Shown here one piece after another: positions 22,789 through 45,785 of a stretch of DNA of 64,000 bases. The DNA is taken from assembly GCA_017503075.1 (NCBI GenBank), contig JAFVTU010000019.1, positions 92,596-156,595 on the forward strand, read 5' to 3'. Numbering within the stretch: position 1 is the first letter of the stretch; each line of letters opens with the position of its first letter. The notes under the pieces are model-generated. The model was not told the origin of the DNA and searched no databases. It saw nothing but the letters and a program-made list of their open reading frames with translations. Position numbers and translations under genes: made by a program. Source of the stretch: Paludibacteraceae bacterium (lineage in GTDB: Bacteria > Bacteroidota > Bacteroidia > Bacteroidales > Paludibacteraceae).

Positions 22789-22820
22789 TTTGCAAATCTC
22801 ACCAAAAAATTGTACCTTTG
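22789..22820 (+). promoter_or_regulatory. Promoter of the modular GIY-YIG gene
   Basis: TTTG at 22789-22792, 20 nt, TACCTTTG at 22813-22820. It places the start at ATG 22842 rather than at the in-frame codon 22818, which lies inside the promoter. Confidence 0.8.
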
Positions 22821-22841
22821 CGGATTAAAATAAATAATCTA

Positions 22842-24920
22842 ATGACTACAGATGAATTCATACTAAAAGCAAAACAAGTGCATGGGGATAGGTATGACTA
22901 CTCTAAAGCAGAATATATAGGCTATAAAGATGATATTTGTATAATATGTCCAGAGCACGGTGCATTCTGGCAGAAAGCAAAAAATCATTTATCTGGCTAC
23001 GGATGTTCTATATGTTCAGGTAGAAAGAAAATGAGGACTATTGATTTTGTAAATAGAGCAAATTTAGTGCATCAAAATAAGTATGATTATTCTAAGACAG
23101 TATATAAAGGAAATAAAGAAAAAATATGTATTATATGTCCAGAGCACGGTGAATTTTTTCAAAGAGCTAACAATCATTTAAGGGGAATTGGCTGTCCTCA
23201 ATGTGGTATAATTAAGAGTAGTTCTAAACAAAAAATCTGGACAAAAGAAAAATGCTATGAGGCTGCACTTAAATATACTGATTTAGGTACTTTCTCTAAA
23301 GAATGTCAGGTGGCGTATGTAATTGCTCATCGAAATGGATGGATTATAGACTACACTTGGTTAAATCGAAAAAAACTTCCCAACGGATATTTAACAAAAG
23401 AACTCGTGATGAGCGAAGCTAGAAAATATAGTAGTTCGCACGATTTTATGGAAGGAAACCGTCAAGCTTATAATGCTGCTCGTCGTAGAGGTTGGATTAA
23501 AGAGTGCATTTGGTTTAAAAAACCAAGAAATGCTAAAAAATGGGATTATAATACTTGTTACGAAGAAGCATTAAAATTCACTTCTAAAATAGAATTTCGG
23601 AAGAATGCAACTACAGCTTACTGCGTAGCTAGAAATCATGGTTGGCTTATAGAATATAAGTGGCTTAAAAACTATGATGAACTTTATGATCATGACGAAT
23701 GTTTTGTCGAAGCTCAGAAATACTTATATTACAATGATTTCCGTGCAAATTCGCATCCATATTATATGGTTGCTAGAAAACGAGGTTGGTTAAGAGAATT
23801 TACATGGTTAATCAAAGAATATGCAGAACCACATAATAAGAAATGGAATTACGATACTTGCTACGAAGAAGCAAAAAAATATGCAACGAAAGGAGCTTTT
23901 GGGAAAGGAGCAAGTGGAGCATATGATGTTGCAAGAAGAAATGGTTGGTTGTCGGATTACACATGGTTTCCTGATTTCTCATCATCAGATGCCAAAGTTG
24001 ATAGCGTTTATTGTTATTATTTCAAAGAACAGAACGCAGTATATGTCGGAAGGACATTAATGTATCGTCAACATATTAGAGATGTAGAACACAATAATTA
24101 CGAAACAGATACGGTGTATAAGTTTGCACACCTAAATAACTGTACTATACCACAAATGCGTATTATTGAAGAATATTTAACAATACAACAAGGTAGAGAG
24201 CGAGAGGATTATTGGAGAAAACAATTTGAGACAGAAGGACGCACAATTCTCAACAAAGCAGCTACTGGCGGCAGAAGTAGTTCTATTGGAGCATTAGCTA
24301 GAGGGAAGTGGACTTTTGAGAAAGCATACAAAATAGCAAAAGCTTTTCAGACAGTTAATGATTTGTGTGAGGAATATGGATATCTTTATAAAATAGCAAA
24401 AGCAAAAGGATGGTTGGAAAAATTTGATTGGTTTAGAGGTAAAGAAATAAGGGTGGAGAAACAAACAAAATGGACTGAAGAGGTTTGTAGGAAGGAGGCT
24501 CTTAAATATAATTCACGAAAGGATTTCCGTAAATATTGTAAGGGAGGATACGACAAAGCAAAAGAAATGGGATGGCTGCAAAACTATACTTGGCTTACTT
24601 ACAATAAACTACATTCAGAATGGGATTATAATAGTTGCAAAGAAGAGGCATCAAAATATCCTAACCGCAATACGTTTGGAAAATATGCCTATGGAGCTTA
24701 TACCAGCTCAAGAAAGAATGGCTGGTTAGATGATTTTTATCCCATACCATTACGCAGATATTTTGATTACGACACTTGCAAAAGAATGGTGTCGAAATAT
24801 CAATCACTTAACGATCTATTAATTAATGATAGAAGTTTATATGAGTCAATTCGTAAAAAAGGGTGGTTAGATAATTTCTTTCCAAAAGATAAAACTACTA
24901 AAGAGAATAAAAATAAATAA
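22842..24920 (+). CDS. GIY-YIG nuclease flanked by arrays of about 45-residue repeats
   Basis: 692 residues in three parts. (1) Residues 1-131: two copies of a DUF723-like unit, each with VH..(K/R)YDYSK, CPEHG and a closing CxxC, suggesting a zinc site. (2) About nine modules of 45-50 residues with the pattern W-x5-C-x2-EA-x-KY...F...AY..AR..GW..(D/E)YTW; five lie at about 132-383 and four at about 489-692. (3) Between them a GIY-YIG domain: VYCYYF (389-394) and AVYVG (399-403), Arg409, Glu443/444, and ILNKA with Asn471. GIY-YIG domains cut DNA in homing and repair enzymes, and the modules are probably DNA-binding. The gene is clearly AT-richer than its neighbours, a sign of transfer. Confidence 0.75.
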   Translation: MTTDEFILKAKQVHGDRYDYSKAEYIGYKDDICIICPEHGAFWQKAKNHLSGYGCSICSGRKKMRTIDFVNRANLVHQNKYDYSKTVYKGNKEKICIICPEHGEFFQRANNHLRGIGCPQCGIIKSSSKQKIWTKEKCYEAALKYTDLGTFSKECQVAYVIAHRNGWIIDYTWLNRKKLPNGYLTKELVMSEARKYSSSHDFMEGNRQAYNAARRRGWIKECIWFKKPRNAKKWDYNTCYEEALKFTSKIEFRKNATTAYCVARNHGWLIEYKWLKNYDELYDHDECFVEAQKYLYYNDFRANSHPYYMVARKRGWLREFTWLIKEYAEPHNKKWNYDTCYEEAKKYATKGAFGKGASGAYDVARRNGWLSDYTWFPDFSSSDAKVDSVYCYYFKEQNAVYVGRTLMYRQHIRDVEHNNYETDTVYKFAHLNNCTIPQMRIIEEYLTIQQGREREDYWRKQFETEGRTILNKAATGGRSSSIGALARGKWTFEKAYKIAKAFQTVNDLCEEYGYLYKIAKAKGWLEKFDWFRGKEIRVEKQTKWTEEVCRKEALKYNSRKDFRKYCKGGYDKAKEMGWLQNYTWLTYNKLHSEWDYNSCKEEASKYPNRNTFGKYAYGAYTSSRKNGWLDDFYPIPLRRYFDYDTCKRMVSKYQSLNDLLINDRSLYESIRKKGWLDNFFPKDKTTKENKNK

Positions 24921-38944: not shown

Positions 38945-39323
38945 TTATTTTTTTTTTGATGGGTATCTTTCAGGGAAAAAGTGTTCGTGTAATGAGTAAA
39001 GATGAACAGTTGCGTAGTTGTTAGATACTTTTATAGAAACATATCCTCTAGCATTGGCTATATCGCAATCTCCTGTAGTATATACATCTATGCATGTATC
39101 TTTGTTAATCAAGGATAGATGATTGTAAGACACATCGTCAAAGCGAATTTTGGTAACAAGCGAGTCAGCGTGGTTGTCGTATATACCACATAATCCATCT
39201 TTATAGACGATACTATATTGTTCATCTTCGGTTGGCTCTATGCGGTCGAAGGGCCTTATTGGTGCAGGAGGCGGCAAATAGGGCGATAGTCGTTAATGTG
39301 ATAAAAAAGCAAAGGTGTTTCAT
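38945..39323 (-). pseudogene. Frameshifted lipoprotein, paralogue of 39874-40194
   Basis: Starting at the ATG at 39323, the minus strand encodes a good lipoprotein signal (MKHLCFFITLTTIALFAASC) followed by TNK. The frame then shifts: one surplus G in AAGGCCC moves the reading off, and the natural continuation PFDRIEPTEDEQYSIVYKDG lies in another frame. That continuation aligns with PFSRLEPTEIERYSIAYSIG of the intact paralogue, so a single-base insertion broke the gene. Confidence 0.8.
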
Positions 39324-39344
39324 ACTGATTAGGGTTCCTTGAAT

Positions 39345-39845
39345 TTACGAATGAATATGAAATGGTTGTTTCCATTCCCCGTTGCGGTGGATGAGTGATC
39401 TAAGCCAGATATCATCTTCCATACCATATCCATCGCAATCTCCACAATCACCTCGTTTGATACAGTACATTAATTCTACATCATTTGTACGAACGGAGCA
39501 ATGAAAAATCACATCTTCTTGCTCTGTACAGATTTTTTCGAGAGATCCTATTTGTGGTAATTGTTCCCATTCTTTTTGGTATGGGAAATGCCATTCTAAT
39601 CCGCGGACTTCATTTTTATCCCCTTCTTCCCATGTACTTAATACAATTTGAAGAGCCATTTCAAAAGGACAATCTTTAGGGATAACGAATGCTATTGCTT
39701 CTTCATATGCAAAAGATGCCCACCCCCTTCTAATATCCAATTCTACATATATCTCTCTTAATTTTTCAATAGACATCTCGCCTTTGCAAAATAGGCGAAT
39801 ATCATTGGCAGCTGCTAGCCAATAAGAGTCATTTTTCGTTTGCAT
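39345..39845 (-). CDS. Uncharacterised protein A1 of a duplicated gene pair
   Basis: 166 residues from ATG 39845 (MQTKNDSYW...), soluble, without a signal. Landmarks: FPYQKEWEQLPQIGSLEKIC near the middle and a Cys/Gly/Asp-rich segment CIKRGDCGDCDGYGMEDD near the C-terminus. The copy at 40221-40727 has the same landmarks, proving duplication of the pair. No family recognised; the cluster (small cytosolic protein followed by a small lipoprotein) is reminiscent of accessory or immunity-type genes but nothing proves this. Confidence 0.65.
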   Translation of the reverse strand: MQTKNDSYWLAAANDIRLFCKGEMSIEKLREIYVELDIRRGWASFAYEEAIAFVIPKDCPFEMALQIVLSTWEEGDKNEVRGLEWHFPYQKEWEQLPQIGSLEKICTEQEDVIFHCSVRTNDVELMYCIKRGDCGDCDGYGMEDDIWLRSLIHRNGEWKQPFHIHS

Positions 39846-39873
39846 AGTTTGATTGTTTTTGGTGGTTAACACA

Positions 39874-40194
39874 TTATTTTTGGGGAAATATGATTTCCAT
39901 TGTTTCGTTGGTAGAATGTTCGATAGCCAGCATACCGATGCAGCTATCCAATTCGCATCGCCATATGCTAATCTCTAATCCGTCTTCTATGGTAGTGCGG
40001 TTGTAGCGTAGCGCATCGTATTTGATGGCGGTAATGAGACTATCTGCATTGTTGTCGTACAGACCGCATTTGCCAATACTATATGCGATGCTGTAGCGCT
40101 CAATCTCGGTTGGTTCTAAACGGGAGAAAGGTTTGCGGGTGCAAGCAGTAAAAACGATGGTGATTACTATCAAAATATAAAATACTGGTTTCAT
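39874..40194 (-). CDS. Small lipoprotein B2 of a duplicated gene pair
   Basis: 106 residues from ATG 40194. Signal KPVFYILIVITIVFTAC with lipobox Cys, then RKPFSRLEPTEIERYSIAY, KCGLYDNNADSLITAIKYD and a short strand-rich tail. It is the intact counterpart of the frameshifted gene at 38945-39323. It follows the broken A2 copy by 26 nt. Function unknown. Confidence 0.65.
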   Translation of the reverse strand: MKPVFYILIVITIVFTACTRKPFSRLEPTEIERYSIAYSIGKCGLYDNNADSLITAIKYDALRYNRTTIEDGLEISIWRCELDSCIGMLAIEHSTNETMEIIFPQK

Positions 40195-40220
40195 AAGTAT
40201 TTCATTTTCTGTATTAGGAT

Positions 40221-40727
40221 TTACTTTTCTATCTGGAAGGGGCGTACCCACTCTCCTTTTTTATTAATTCTGGCAAGAAGCCAAGTATCATCTTCCATAC
40301 CATATCCGTCGCTATCGCCACAGTCTCCTTGCTTAATACAATATCTAAGTACGATCTCATCCTCATAGACGGAACAGCGGAAATTTACATCTCTTTGTTC
40401 GGCACAGATTTTTTCTAATGATCCTATTTGTGGTAGTTGTTCCCACTCTTTTTGGTAGGGGAATATCCACCCGCCAATGTCTGCAAAATTTTGGTCTTTC
40501 GGTTCATGATCCGTACTAAATGCTAATTCTAACGCTTTGTGGAATGGACATTCTCTGGGAATTACAATACACATAACCTCTTCGTAATTATGTCAACCAA
40601 TATATCCTTTTCTAATATCTAATTCTGGATATTTGTTTTTCATCTCTTCTAAAGAGATTACACCTTTTCGAAAAAAGCGTATATCGTCAGCCAATGCTGA
40701 CCAATAAGAATCGTTTTTTGTGTTCAT
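40221..40727 (-). pseudogene. Nonsense-mutated copy A2 of the duplicated gene
   Basis: From ATG 40727 the frame reads MNTKNDSYWSALADDIRFF and on to LDIRKGYIG, then TGA (complement of 40593-40595), then continues in the same frame with HNYEEVMCIVIPRECPF and FPYQKEWEQLPQIGSLEKIC to a normal end. The intact paralogue reads through the same place with SFAYEEAIAFVIP. One in-frame stop therefore interrupts the gene at about residue 44 of 168. Re-initiation at an internal codon could give a truncated product. Confidence 0.8.
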
Positions 40728-41867: not shown

Positions 41868-42677
41868 CTATAGAGAATATAGACTATTTCCTTTCGTATG
41901 CGCCACAATATGAATACTCAGTTCGTAGAGCAGGTATAACGGTACTGTTACCAGCAACAATGTGAAAATATCCGCTGTTGGCGTAATGACTGCTGACAAG
42001 ATGGCTAATACTACTATTGCATGTTTGCGGTATTGTACCAATAGCGGTTTGTCTATCAATCCCAATTTTGCCAAGAAATAAGCAATGATAGGTATCTCAA
42101 ATAATATACCCATAAGCAATGATAACACCAATAGTGTTGATATATACGACTTTAGTGCAATTTGATTAATAACCATCTCTTGTACTTGATAGGTACTCAA
42201 GAAACGGAATGCGAAAGGGAATATTACAAAGTAATTTAGCAATACACCCAATGCGAACAATAATACTCCAAAGAATATCAACAGTATTGAATAGCGTTTT
42301 TCTTGTGTGTATAGCGCAGGTGCAATAAAGCCATAAAGTTGGATGATGAGATATGGGAATGCTACTAACACACCCATAATGACTGCCACTTGCAAGTGCG
42401 TAGTGAATTGCGATGCTAATTCGATATTGATAAACTCAATAGCGAAATCTTCTGGGCATAGTGCAGGCATAGACAATCGCTCTGCTACCCAACACAATCC
42501 GCGATAGAGAATAAAGTCGGATTTGGATGGAGCAAAGAGTATGCTGAAGAGTGCGTCCTTAAAGCAGAACGCAGCAATAGCGCATACTAACCACACAGCC
42601 AAGCAACGGAAAACAACCTTTCGGAACACTTCCACATGTTCCCAAAAGGTCATTTTCTCTTCGTTATTATTTTCCAT
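41868..42677 (-). CDS. tatC: Twin-arginine translocase subunit TatC
   Basis: 269 residues with six hydrophobic segments. The N-terminus [16 protein letters not shown] corresponds to the conserved HL.ELR region that binds the RR signal, and [14 protein letters not shown] to the first cytoplasmic loop. TatC is the receptor for twin-arginine substrates. It overlaps tatA by 11 nt and ends a run that begins with a peptide precursor bearing a twin-arginine signal, so it most likely serves that substrate. Confidence 0.93.
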
Positions 42678-42891
42678 CTTGGCTTGGTTGCTGTTCGGTA
42701 GGTTGTTGCGATGGTTGGTCTTCAGAAGGGCGTTTTACTTCCTCTTCCATCTCGTTCATTCCTTGTTTGAAGGATTTAACGCCTTTGCCCAAACCTTTCA
42801 TTAGCTCAGGTATCTTCTTGCCTCCAAATAGCAATAGCACAATGAGAACAATAAAAATAATCTCAGGTGCTCCAATCATGAGTAGTGTCAT
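42667..42891 (-). CDS. tatA: Twin-arginine translocase subunit TatA
   Basis: 74 residues: an N-terminal membrane helix ([23 protein letters not shown], with the FGxKKIPEL hinge diagnostic of TatA), an amphipathic helix ([18 protein letters not shown]) and a Gln/Pro/Glu-rich soluble tail. TatA forms the pore recruited by TatC. It starts 6 nt after the small modification-system gene, in the same operon. Confidence 0.93.
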
Positions 42892-42897
42892 AGTTGT

Positions 42898-43191
42898 TTA
42901 CTTATTGCAATTACATTCGTTGTTGCAGTTTAGATAAATCTCACAAGTGTCAAAATTGATTTCCCAATTTCCGCCTTCGCAAGATTCCCAATTGTATTTA
43001 GCTGCCATATCGTCCCACCATTGTTGGAACTTGCTGCCTGTTTCGCCCATGTCTTTGACTAGCTTTTCATACAATTCTGCGTTATCAGCAGTAAGAATTT
43101 TTGCCAGTTCGGTCAAACCGTTACGACGCTCAAATAGCGTTTGAATGGTGTTCTTTTCTTCAACAGTTACCTGTCCTACAAGTTTTTTCAT
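42898..43191 (-). CDS. CXXX-repeat peptide modification system small protein
   Basis: 97 residues, soluble. An N-terminal helical part (VEEKNTIQTLFERRNGLTELAKIL) and a short C-terminus carrying CEGG, CEIYLNCNNECNCNK with five cysteines. As I recall the TIGR families of CXXX-repeat loci, a small 'modification system protein' of this size accompanies the two maturases; the resemblance fits but was not tested. It could act as a precursor-binding partner or sulfur/metal carrier. Starts 1 nt after the maturase stop. Confidence 0.7.
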   Translation of the reverse strand: MKKLVGQVTVEEKNTIQTLFERRNGLTELAKILTADNAELYEKLVKDMGETGSKFQQWWDDMAAKYNWESCEGGNWEINFDTCEIYLNCNNECNCNK

Positions 43192-43192
43192 C

Positions 43193-44146
43193 TCAGAATT
43201 CCTCCTTTACTTCAAATGGATCTAAATATGTGATTTCTTTTATCTCGTTAGTGACTTGATACCCCGCCTCTTTTAATTGTAATTGCAAATCGCGTGCAGC
43301 ATTGCGCTCAAGATGTGAAATGATACATTGTTGGCGTGATGGGGTGTTGTTGTCCCATGTGAGTTTTTGATTGAGCCAAATACAGCGATTGCAATGGTAT
43401 GCATCACAAATGCGACAAAGTGGCGCATGGTCAAGTTGCAAGAGTTGTTTGTTTGGAATGTCAAGCCCTCTCTCTAAATCTCCTACACTACGCGAAGCAT
43501 CTTTAGTTTTGTGATTCATGCGATTGCTAATGCCCATCTGCTCATCATAATAGAATGCGGGGCAGAGGTAGAACTTTCCATTAGGTGCAAGCGTAATATT
43601 GCCAATACCTGCTTCACAATTGTGCATCTCGGTCAATTGCAAACGGTCTGTCAAGATGTTGAGTTGTGGGTTCTTTGCCTGCTTGTATAGATTGAGTAAA
43701 ACGGCATTGAGTGTTGCTAACGCTTTTTTGTAATTCTCAATCTGTCCTTCAGTAAATGACTCAATATCCGTCAAGCAGATATTAAGGCGAATCGTCTGTG
43801 GCAAGAGTGCTGCAATATCGTATTGCTTCGTGATAAATTCGGCAATAGTCAGGCGCAATACGAGATTGTCAGTATCTGCTGTGGTTGGCACGTAATCAAG
43901 CACTTGAACCTCGCGTCCAATTTTCACATGGTCAATTGTCTCAATGAGTTCGTTGTATTCCGCTGGGAGTTCGTAGTTAGGATATACAAACTGAATCATC
44001 AAGTTTTGCTGCATACCAAAGAGGATTGCTTTACGCAAGGTTTCCAATGGCATTAAGTTGCATTCCGTAAGCGGATTATTGGCATGGCAGTAAGCCACGC
44101 TGGTGTCATCCAATAGGATAACCAAATATTGCATATATGGTTTCAT
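43193..44146 (-). CDS. CXXX-repeat peptide maturase, SPASM-like without radical-SAM core motif
   Basis: 317 residues. The N-terminal two thirds is shaped like a radical-SAM barrel (alternating strands and helices) but contains no CxxxCxxC, so it cannot bind the SAM-cleaving cluster. The C-terminal third has a cysteine array of the SPASM type: NCEAGIGNITLAPNGKFYLCP, then LCRICDAYHCNRC and QQCIISHLERNA. This suggests an accessory protein holding one or more Fe-S clusters that partners the true radical SAM enzyme encoded 3 nt upstream. Confidence 0.75.
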   Translation of the reverse strand: MKPYMQYLVILLDDTSVAYCHANNPLTECNLMPLETLRKAILFGMQQNLMIQFVYPNYELPAEYNELIETIDHVKIGREVQVLDYVPTTADTDNLVLRLTIAEFITKQYDIAALLPQTIRLNICLTDIESFTEGQIENYKKALATLNAVLLNLYKQAKNPQLNILTDRLQLTEMHNCEAGIGNITLAPNGKFYLCPAFYYDEQMGISNRMNHKTKDASRSVGDLERGLDIPNKQLLQLDHAPLCRICDAYHCNRCIWLNQKLTWDNNTPSRQQCIISHLERNAARDLQLQLKEAGYQVTNEIKEITYLDPFEVKEEF

Positions 44147-44149
44147 GGC

Positions 44150-45376
44150 TTAGCAGATAATGTCGTTAGACTGTTTTTTGTTTTGTTCAAACTCCTCGCG
44201 TTTGCCTTCTAATTCAAGTTTGCGGTAAAGCTTGTTCCAATAATAGTTGTTGGCACGCACACGCGCTTTGTGCATTTTGCAAATAGCGGTTGCACGCTCA
44301 AAGACGGTATGCGTTTTTGCTGCATCATAGTTCTCGCCTTGGCACCAAGCACATCCCTCTGCTACTTCACAATCTACGCACTCAGGTAATGATTGGGTAC
44401 AACGATCAAGTGTAAGGAATGGGCGGAGTTTGTTGTTATCAATGCCATCGTGGATATTTCCGATAATCCATGCCTCTTTATCGCGCAGTGAGTATTGCGC
44501 GAAACGGGTGCAAGGATAGAAATTTCCTGCTGCATCAATAGATAGCATCTTGCCTGCACCACACCAGTTTTGATTTTGATACTTGCAATCCATAGGTTTA
44601 CCCATGTTCTCTGTAAAGAATGAGCAAGCATAGTCCTTGTAGAGTTCTTTATCAATAATTGCATCTGCAAGTTGCATTAGTTGTTCTTCGAAACGAATAT
44701 CGTCGCCTTCTGTCCATACATCTTCAAAAACACAGTTGATATTGACTACATGAATCCCCAAATCGTATAAGTGTAATACCGACTCACAAATATAGGGAAT
44801 ATCAGCCGAGGAAATAGTTACTTTTGTACCATCTCCAGGGAACTGTTTTTGCCATAATGGGATATTGCGTACAACATCATCATAGGAACCGCGTTCAGGA
44901 CCATCGCCTTTCCAAATACGATTTAGGTCATGCTTACGACGGGTACCGTCAATAGTAATACCAATACTAAGATGTTCGTGATTTTTTCTTATAAAATTTT
45001 GCACTTTTTCACTATCATAATTTATTCCATTAGTTGAAAAGGCAAATCGATAAGAATTGAACCAATGGTGATTGCGACGGAAAAGTTCTTGTTTGATATA
45101 GTCACATATCTTGTCTATCAAATCGATTTCAAGGAATGGTTCTCCGCCTATAAAATCCCATGCAACCGATTGATGTGAGAAATTAGGATTATCTTTTTGA
45201 TCCAGAATGTAATCTATCGCCTTCTTTGCTATTTCAAAGGACATACGTTCCTTTTCGTTCTTGCCTACCAAGTAACAATACTTGCATGCAAGTTGACAAT
45301 CTTTGGTAACAATAAAAGTTATGAACTTAGCCCGTCCTTCTTGCCATGATTTGTTTTGATTCTTAATTTGTAGCAT
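44150..45376 (-). CDS. Radical SAM/SPASM peptide maturase (CXXX-repeat target family)
   Basis: 408 residues from ATG 45376. CQLACKYCYL gives the SAM-binding cluster cysteines 27, 31 and 34, followed by GGEPFLEIDLI and the barrel. The SPASM domain is full: CKYQNQNWCGAGKMLSIDAAG and FYPCTRFAQ, then CTQSLPECVDCEVAEGCAWC and CKMHKA. Such enzymes install thioether or other crosslinks on peptide precursors in the cytoplasm. The adjacent Cys-rich precursor is the obvious substrate. A hairpin separates it from the precursor gene. The longer upstream start (45397) falls in this hairpin and is not favoured. Confidence 0.9.
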   Translation of the reverse strand: MLQIKNQNKSWQEGRAKFITFIVTKDCQLACKYCYLVGKNEKERMSFEIAKKAIDYILDQKDNPNFSHQSVAWDFIGGEPFLEIDLIDKICDYIKQELFRRNHHWFNSYRFAFSTNGINYDSEKVQNFIRKNHEHLSIGITIDGTRRKHDLNRIWKGDGPERGSYDDVVRNIPLWQKQFPGDGTKVTISSADIPYICESVLHLYDLGIHVVNINCVFEDVWTEGDDIRFEEQLMQLADAIIDKELYKDYACSFFTENMGKPMDCKYQNQNWCGAGKMLSIDAAGNFYPCTRFAQYSLRDKEAWIIGNIHDGIDNNKLRPFLTLDRCTQSLPECVDCEVAEGCAWCQGENYDAAKTHTVFERATAICKMHKARVRANNYYWNKLYRKLELEGKREEFEQNKKQSNDIIC

Positions 45377-45394
45377 AGTAACTAAAATGCAAAG

Positions 45395-45428
45395 CAAGAG
45401 GAAAGTGTTAAGTCAACACTCCCTCTTG
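45395..45428 (-). terminator. Attenuator-like hairpin between precursor and maturase
   Basis: Minus strand: CAAGAGG (complement of 45422-45428) pairs with CCTCTTG (complement of 45395-45401), extended inside by AGTGTT/AACACT. The T run after it is weak. It could cut read-through so the precursor is made in excess, or protect the precursor mRNA 3' end. Confidence 0.65.
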
Positions 45429-45440
45429 TAGATTTGGGTT

Positions 45441-45785
45441 TTAAACGGTATAAGATGTTCCAGAGCAACTACCAGAACAACTGCCAGAGCAATATCCTGT
45501 GCACCCACCGCAAGCGTATTTACATCCATCACAAGAACCACTATAGTTCATACTAGAACTTCCTTTGCAATTTAAAGCGCAACTAGAGCCACAACTTCTA
45601 TGACACCCTCCACGACATCCATTTGTACAATCATTTTGGCAACCTGAACAATAAGCAGCACCTGCTTTTACAAATGGGATAGAGCTCATCACCATCGCAC
45701 CAACCACAGGCAATGCAGCTTTTGCGGCTTTTTTGAAGAACTCTCTACGCGATTGAAGTTCTTCGTTTTGTTTTTTGTTTGACAT
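45441..45785 (-). CDS. Tat-exported cysteine-rich CXXX-repeat peptide precursor
   Basis: 114 residues. Residues 1-43 are a twin-arginine signal: SRREFFKKA (12-20) with the RR pair at 13-14, a hydrophobic stretch ALPVVGAMVMSSIPFV and an AGA-type cleavage site near 43. The rest holds 15 cysteines. Block one has Cys46 and Cys49-53-57-61-65-69-73, spaced exactly by four. A Ser/Asn/Tyr linker (74-84) follows. Block two has Cys85-88-92-95-99-103-107. Residues between cysteines are mostly Gly, Ser, Asn and Arg. The signal suggests folding and modification before export. It is the first gene after the structured RNA and leads the maturase-tat operon. Confidence 0.85.
   Translation of the reverse strand: MSNKKQNEELQSRREFFKKAAKAALPVVGAMVMSSIPFVKAGAAYCSGCQNDCTNGCRGGCHRSCGSSCALNCKGSSSMNYSGSCDGCKYACGGCTGYCSGSCSGSCSGTSYTV

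Follow-up and report, generated by a model that had tools for sequence, protein, structure and literature searches.

A CXXX-repeat peptide cassette with its own twin-arginine translocation genes in a Paludibacteraceae bacterium

The operon and its products

The window analysed here is a stretch of 64,000 nucleotides from a Paludibacteraceae bacterium, a gut member of the Bacteroidales (GenBank assembly GCA_017503075.1, contig JAFVTU010000019.1, positions 92,596 to 156,595 of the forward strand). Its minus strand carries a six-gene operon, which runs from 45785 to 41868 and encodes a candidate precursor of a ribosomally synthesised and post-translationally modified peptide (RiPP), a radical S-adenosylmethionine (SAM)/SPASM maturase, a TIGR04119 partner, a TIGR04116 protein and the twin-arginine translocation (Tat) proteins TatA and TatC. 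An earlier note, made from the sequence alone, had described these six genes in this order, and the order is confirmed. The note also placed the genes 1–6 nt apart with a final overlap. This is correct for the last five genes, where the gaps are 3, 1, 6 and -11 nt, and incorrect for the precursor and maturase genes, which are separated by 64 nt.

The precursor (45441-45785) has 114 amino acids. It comprises a leader with a Tat signal (SRREFFKKAAKAALPVVGA) and a core of 15 cysteines, mostly with CXXX spacing, in agreement with the earlier reading of SRREFFKKA in front of a CXXX-repeat core. The SRREFFKK motif is followed by a moderately hydrophobic stretch, and an alignment of 16 precursors, judged by eye, places a likely AxA cleavage site near VKAGAA/YC. 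Twin-arginine motif, hydrophobic stretch and cleavage site together make this protein a predicted Tat substrate. The precursor matches TIGR04117 with an E-value of 1.8e-9; its score of 37.6 bits is under the family cut-off of 50, and the CXXX repeat is plain to see. All 16 aligned precursors match TIGR04117 and seven of them match TIGR04114 (E up to 0.01).

The maturase (44150-45376, 408 amino acids) begins at an ATG (45376), with a TTG upstream at 45397. It scores 613.6 bits against TIGR04115 (cut-off 350). The CX3CX2C motif (C26, C30, C33) is kept in all 25 aligned sequences, and so are the auxiliary-cluster cysteines C271, C288, C332, C335, C341, C344 and C365; on these features the protein is a predicted radical SAM/SPASM enzyme. 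Among solved structures it is related to 5wgg (E 4.5e-25), which we take to be CteB. It also matches the PapB model (E 1.9e-56), at 191.7 bits and below the cut-off of 340. In PADLOC only viperin models match the maturase (E 2.2e-9 and 1.6e-5), and this was taken as similarity of fold.

The TIGR04119 partner (43193-44146, 317 amino acids, 207.6 bits, cut-off 150) has a SPASM-like C-terminal half. An hhalign comparison pairs this part with the SPASM region of the maturase (probability 42, E 2.6e-4), and seven cysteines are kept in 57 of 57 sequences, yet the CX3CX2C motif is missing; the protein is therefore probably a degenerate partner. Its only match among solved structures is 5wgg (E 0.0026). 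The TIGR04116 protein (42898-43191, 97 amino acids, 100.3 bits, cut-off 50) is a small, strongly conserved protein of the modification system, with no convincing relative among solved structures (best E 0.29). The tatA gene (42667-42891) matches TIGR01411 at 67.7 bits (cut-off 53.9) and the tatC gene (41868-42677) matches TIGR00945 at 152.8 bits (cut-off 132.7). Pfam concurs with NCBIfam for TatC, TatA and Radical_SAM.

The gap between the precursor and maturase genes contains a predicted stem-loop (45395-45428). The 76-nt stretch around it folds with -19.8 kcal/mol (z -3.68), and one of 200 shuffled sequences was equally stable. By consensus the stem-loop is terminator-like, a class of site that is not found above chance (2 found, 3.4 expected), and it is a possible attenuator or processing site. 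Among 18 relatives, stems judged without shuffles look stable in six (L054, L057, L058, L067, L071, L086) and weak in two (L055, L064). Scans for Rfam families and tRNAs gave no match inside the operon.

Conservation of the cassette and its leaders

A collection of 84,980 species genomes was scanned for maturase relatives. They are encoded in 355 stretches, so the system is not rare, and the best 80 loci were studied. The closest named relative of the maturase is found in a metagenome-assembled genome of the Paludibacteraceae from roe deer caecum (88% identity). A locus was counted as having room if the sequence continues for 5.2 kb or more beyond the maturase gene (62 of 80). The order maturase, TIGR04119, TIGR04116, tatA, tatC is whole in 54 of these 62 and visible in 11 of the 18 shorter loci. 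Since the same order recurs in so many relatives, the arrangement is not due to chance, and a search for other genomes with tatAC beside CXXX precursors, which the earlier note had proposed as a check, finds the adjacency conserved. The TIGR04119 partner accompanies the maturase in 79 of the 80 loci.

The gene set is small and portable, and its surroundings vary. Among ORFs (open reading frames) of at least 70 amino acids, any family from outside the cassette is shared by at most 13 of 78 neighbourhoods (L104 and L106, where the maturase ORF was not kept, were dropped). Two families reach 13; one is an ORF that lies antisense across the cassette, the other a small helix-turn-helix protein. The latter lies about 2-9 kb from some cassettes (for example at L102 and L108), on either side, and is a possible regulator. 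These neighbourhoods show no recurrent immunity gene, protease or outer-membrane exporter.

In viral contigs, 46 stretches fit the search pattern and none encodes a relative. A human faecal scaffold labelled 'Bacteriophage sp.' and marked as unverified (MT837480.1, 1-6791) carries the whole cassette, from repeat ORF through tatC, as either bacterial carry-over or a mobile copy.

Repeat ORFs with at least five CxxxC units are found near the maturase in all 80 loci, 152 in total, and 42 loci have two or more (a raw count that includes a few fragments). The motif xRRx[FLIMV][FLIMVY] stands ahead of the repeats in 142 of them. The other ten comprise three ORFs cut by a contig start (L082, L093, L097), one false match (L056), one in which the script missed the twin arginine (L122), two fragments (L060, L064) and three in which it is absent as read (L094, L109, L111). 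At least one twin-arginine precursor is present in 77 of the 80 loci, the remaining three being cut by a contig start. The earlier note had named absence of the motif in homologues as a reason to abandon its proposal, and these counts speak otherwise.

In 134 leaders, phenylalanine occupies positions +3 and +4 in 98% each, and a Leu-Pro pair lies at +12/+13 (92% and 94%). This conservation exceeds the needs of a plain Tat signal; the leaders are related, so part of it reflects common descent. The cores contain up to 62 cysteines in one repeat ORF, and 2342 pairs of neighbouring cysteines are spaced by four. The residue four positions after a cysteine is another cysteine in 80% of cases and Asp or Glu in 1.5% (2939 cysteines in the 152 ORFs). 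A lipobox-like cysteine is present in about 29 of the 142 twin-arginine precursors (34 flagged, about five of them false by eye). Three such precursors, of L070, L113 and L117, have acidic residues directly after the lipid cysteine (GCSKDED, NCSKEDD and SCSKDDE), presumably resembling the surface export signal of Bacteroidota lipoproteins.

More distant CXXX systems are mixed. Three of them (L303, L305, L307) have twin-arginine precursors and tatAC. In L300-L302, L306 and an Anaerococcus plasmid (L295) a small Cys-repeat ORF lacks the twin arginine, and there is no tatAC in the stretch read. Genomes G259 (of L304) and G037 (of L306) have a tatC elsewhere. Since the divergent relatives differ in both features, Tat coupling is a variant within CXXX systems. 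The non-Tat leaders of L300-L302 also carry a TLP stretch, and the window leader segment RREFFKKAAKAALP aligns without gaps with SRELLHRVSRKTLP of the L302 leader, in a weak BLASTP match of one pair (E 1e-4).

The Anaerococcus plasmid is the conjugative plasmid pAPRE01 of Anaerococcus prevotii (NC_013164.1; L295 and L297). Its CXXX maturase and partner form one protein, and the neighbouring genes include a class III lanthipeptide cluster as well as other radical SAM genes. The radical SAM enzyme of L295 is 46% identical to that of the window and is fused with the TIGR04119 part. The plasmid system differs from the window cassette in that the small Cys-repeat ORF ahead of the enzyme lacks the twin arginine and that ABC transporter genes lie nearby, with no tatAC in 13.4 kb.

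TatC lineages and Tat signals

In a tree of 145 TatC sequences, the labels 'cluster' and 'other' require four changes, against a mean of 48 for shuffled labels, and none of 500 shuffles was as low. A second tree of 86 of the 145 contains two clades of cluster TatCs, clade A with 25 rows (SH-aLRT 97) and clade B with 17 rows (99). Each clade is one side of a branch, and the window copy belongs to clade B. One sequence (L097) is an ungrouped outlier. Another (L148) carried the label 'other' in the first tree and was included in clade B for the second; it is the contig-start tatC of genome G303, whose cassette contig also ends early. The lineage of TatC follows membership of the cassette, with two supported cluster clades and the one outlier.

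Clade A has glutamine in 98% of its members at a position where 99% of other TatCs and all of clade B have glutamate. This is E194 of the window TatC, which by motif should be the residue called E170 in E. coli. The exchange is a possible change of specificity. Of the polar or aromatic columns with a conservation of 90% or more in other TatCs, all 29 that were listed are kept in the window TatC, and on the curated cut-offs and these residues the window TatAC is predicted to be functional.

Genomes were reached through 50 of the 80 loci, 49 in number, and several of them recur in the genus sample under other handles. TatC is present in 48 of these 49 cassette genomes, including all eight in which no tatC lies beside a complete cluster. 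Two or more TatC matches occur in 31 of the 49, some of them being fragments or part of a second cassette: the second TatC of G518 and of G529 is probably from a second cassette, that of G503 is a fragment. The genome of Xylanibacter rarus strain 109 (locus L111), a cultured carrier, has two full-length TatC matches and one fragment. In the genus sample of 178 genomes, 23 have the cassette maturase and 93 have TatC (one below cut-off). A tatC is present in 22 of the 23 carriers and 71 of the 155 others (Fisher p 2.4e-6, without correction for kinship). It lies within 5 kb of the cassette in 19 of the 23 carriers, all tatC matches adjoin the cassette in 10, and one genome (G433) has two cassettes with a tatC beside each. 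In a family sample of 200 genomes TatC is found in 16 of 16 cassette genomes and 120 of 184 others. The order sample of 295 genomes has seven over the maturase cut-off and 246 with TatC, and the phylum sample of 395 has six with the maturase, the window's own genome included.

The window's own genome amounts to 2,058,187 bases on 30 contigs, at 99.55% completeness and 5.49% contamination. The cluster tatC is its only TatC match. The pattern RRxF[hydrophobic]K occurs at 16 places, against 24 for a backwards control; all 16 were read in frame, and only at the precursor does the pattern lie close to a start with a hydrophobic stretch following it. A looser pattern gave 144 places against 178 in its control. 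Among the 100 listed of these 144, with places that have Cys, Trp or a stop before the twin arginine passed over, 32 encode [S/T/R]RR, the precursor included, and none of the other 31 is a credible Tat signal. The closest look-alike, L283, was considered as a second signal. It is a 38-amino-acid ORF, the one place outside the precursor to pass a hydropathy filter, and was rejected because a longer ORF of the same strand, which presumably is ispE-like, encloses it in another frame. That verdict was made by eye because the filter misses the precursor too. The TAT_signal model TIGR01409 has no match in this genome at E up to 10 and has matches in 12 of 14 control genomes; since it also misses the precursor, motif patterns were used instead and the model was not counted as evidence.

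The earlier note had asked for other Tat substrates and a second tatC, and said that a sole tatAC with many substrates and unconserved adjacency would speak against its proposal. The tatC is indeed the only one. The adjacency is conserved, and the places read yielded no further credible Tat signal.

Two other features of the window were recorded. On the minus strand, at 38945-40727, a two-gene unit occurs twice in tandem, and the copies have KEWEQLPQIGSLEKIC and GLYDN-ADSL stretches in common; in one of them the larger gene is broken into ORFs at 40593-40727 and 40221-40574. On the plus strand, at 22818-24920, a 700-amino-acid ORF has two CPEHG...GC..C ribbons and many short repeats, and is possibly endonuclease-like.

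A proposed route of export and its rivals

We hypothesise that the operon is a self-contained RiPP cassette, in which the leader is a Tat signal and the peptide, after cytoplasmic modification, leaves in folded form through a TatAC of its own. Conserved adjacency, the TatC clades and the twin-arginine precursors all support the dedicated translocase that the earlier note had proposed. So do the scarcity of recurring outside families, the co-occurrence in the genus, the single tatC and lone credible signal among the places read in the own genome, and the divergent clusters (L295, L300-L302, L306) in which the twin arginine is missing and the stretch read has no tatAC. On this evidence, which is of sequence, we consider the hypothesis likely. 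The precursor would remain cytoplasmic while the radical SAM/SPASM enzyme, the TIGR04119 partner and the TIGR04116 protein act on it, and these may install sulfur-based crosslinks in the four-residue cysteine register. The leader would be read first by the maturase, through the conserved LP motif that is shared with some non-Tat leaders, and next by the dedicated TatAC, which would carry the folded, crosslinked peptide across the inner membrane; Tat is described as exporting folded proteins (PMC3827258, in the portion consulted). Tat would be used because the product is rigid, and the usual RiPP ABC exporter would be unneeded. Signal peptidase I would then release the product, and for lipobox precursors lipoprotein processing would anchor it, in the periplasm or the outer envelope. 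Our best guess is that the product is most likely an envelope peptide with a role in contact, metal or redox.

An extended form of the hypothesis is evenly balanced in our judgement. It holds that the cassette stands for a RiPP class in which leader and Tat signal are one element with their own translocase, that crosslinking is coupled to Tat and perhaps proofread by it, that the TatC is a lineage specialised for its substrate, with the Glu-to-Gln exchange of clade A at a near-universal position, and that the Tat motif arose inside an older leader for maturase recognition.

Several observations weigh against a dedicated translocase for a crosslinked peptide. Seven of the 62 loci with room carry no tat genes and one carries tatA alone, and the divergent L298, L299 and L304 have twin-arginine precursors (with a lipobox-like cysteine), and tatAC is absent from the 10-12 kb read there; other TatCs can therefore probably serve. 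The adjacency is broken in genus genomes G554, G572, G658 and G598 (in G598 the match is near a contig start), one of the 49 cassette genomes lacks any TatC match (G505, of L127, a locus truncated by the end of its contig), and the genus test ignores kinship. Distances between maturases are correlated with those between TatCs at a Mantel r of 0.35 (65 loci; 0 of 999 permutations as high), a modest value, and therefore tatC was probably exchanged at times. The scans for other Tat signals covered 100 of the 144 looser-pattern places and signals with phenylalanine at +3, and the crosslinks are read from the family of the enzyme.

One rival explanation is that the precursor is an ordinary Tat substrate because of folding or metal binding inside the cell, and that tatAC is a general system, merely linked to the cassette and without specialisation. 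The genome's sole tatC match, the 8 of 62 clusters without a local tatC and the intact conserved columns of the window TatC would fit this. The two cluster-specific TatC clades, with the glutamine of clade A where other TatCs have glutamate, do not, nor do the additional TatC matches in 31 of 49 cassette genomes (second cassettes and fragments among them) or the lack of a second credible signal among the places read in the own genome, and we think a general system unlikely. Alternatively, the cysteines may be left without crosslinks as metal-binding repeats (Fe-S or thiolate). The radical SAM enzyme would then add a minor modification, and Tat would be used because the cofactor is inserted before export. 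Tat exports cofactor-loaded proteins, and as many as 62 cysteines per ORF in a regular spacing of four would suit such a role. This would require two Cys-rich proteins of Fe-S type for each peptide, as a radical SAM enzyme is present at every locus (by construction) and the SPASM-like partner at 79 of 80. The nearest characterised families also make thioethers, as stated in the sections consulted for PapB (PMC9413430) and CteB (PMC10352776), and metal loading seems somewhat less probable again.

The product may instead be a diffusible bacteriocin, with TatAC as one step of its secretion. The several divergent repeat ORFs per locus (raw count) and the changing flanks of the cassette are in keeping with this; the missing recurrence of an immunity gene, protease or outer-membrane exporter, and the lipid anchor apparent in about a fifth of the twin-arginine precursors, are not. 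We regard it as the least probable of these explanations.

The dedicated-export hypothesis extends a known system. NCBIfam describes a CXXX-repeat system of TIGR04115, TIGR04116 and TIGR04119 with the targets TIGR04117 and TIGR04114, and the three window enzymes exceed its curated cut-offs. Those models cover maturases and targets, and what is added here is a TatAC that is linked and specific to the cluster. The short model name tSAM_targ_Cxxx may be a sign that its curators had noticed a Tat signal. The PapB/PapA ranthipeptides and 5wgg are similar in the radical SAM/SPASM enzyme and the cysteine register. PapA has Cys-X3-Asp/Glu (PMC9413430, in the part consulted), whereas in the precursors studied here the +4 residue is mainly another cysteine. 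The scarcity of Asp/Glu there means that the acceptor must differ from that of PapA, and a PapB-type ranthipeptide was rejected on the acceptor position.

Specialised Tat systems have a precedent in Bacillus. The known substrates of Bacillus TatCd and TatCy are enzymes. The extra TatC is thought to serve specialised secretion (PMC3827258, same portion); the difference here is that the candidate substrate is a RiPP precursor, with tatAC inside its biosynthetic cassette. The RiPP families are already annotated, and no description of a private Tat coupling came up in the literature searched, which was open-access and without subscription papers or preprints. In that literature neither the TIGR model numbers nor 'CXXX repeat peptide' was found. 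Among papers that mention both RiPPs and twin-arginine, no title points to a natural RiPP exported by Tat; PMC5686179, in the portion consulted, concerns engineered phage display of lanthipeptides. The main text of a survey of Bacteroidales RiPPs (PMC10352776) lacks 'CXXX', 'twin' and 'Tat', and PMC7470986 lacks 'CXXX' and 'twin-arginine', in the portions consulted.

RiPPs are usually exported by ABC transporters, and a RiPP coupled to Tat departs from that. If the hypothesis is true, the cassette would be a natural, single-substrate model of the Tat folding check, in which crosslinked and uncrosslinked precursor form a folded and unfolded pair, and it would give Gram-negative hosts a means of exporting crosslinked peptides. 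Some of the second tatC genes in gut Bacteroidales may also be accounted for in this way.

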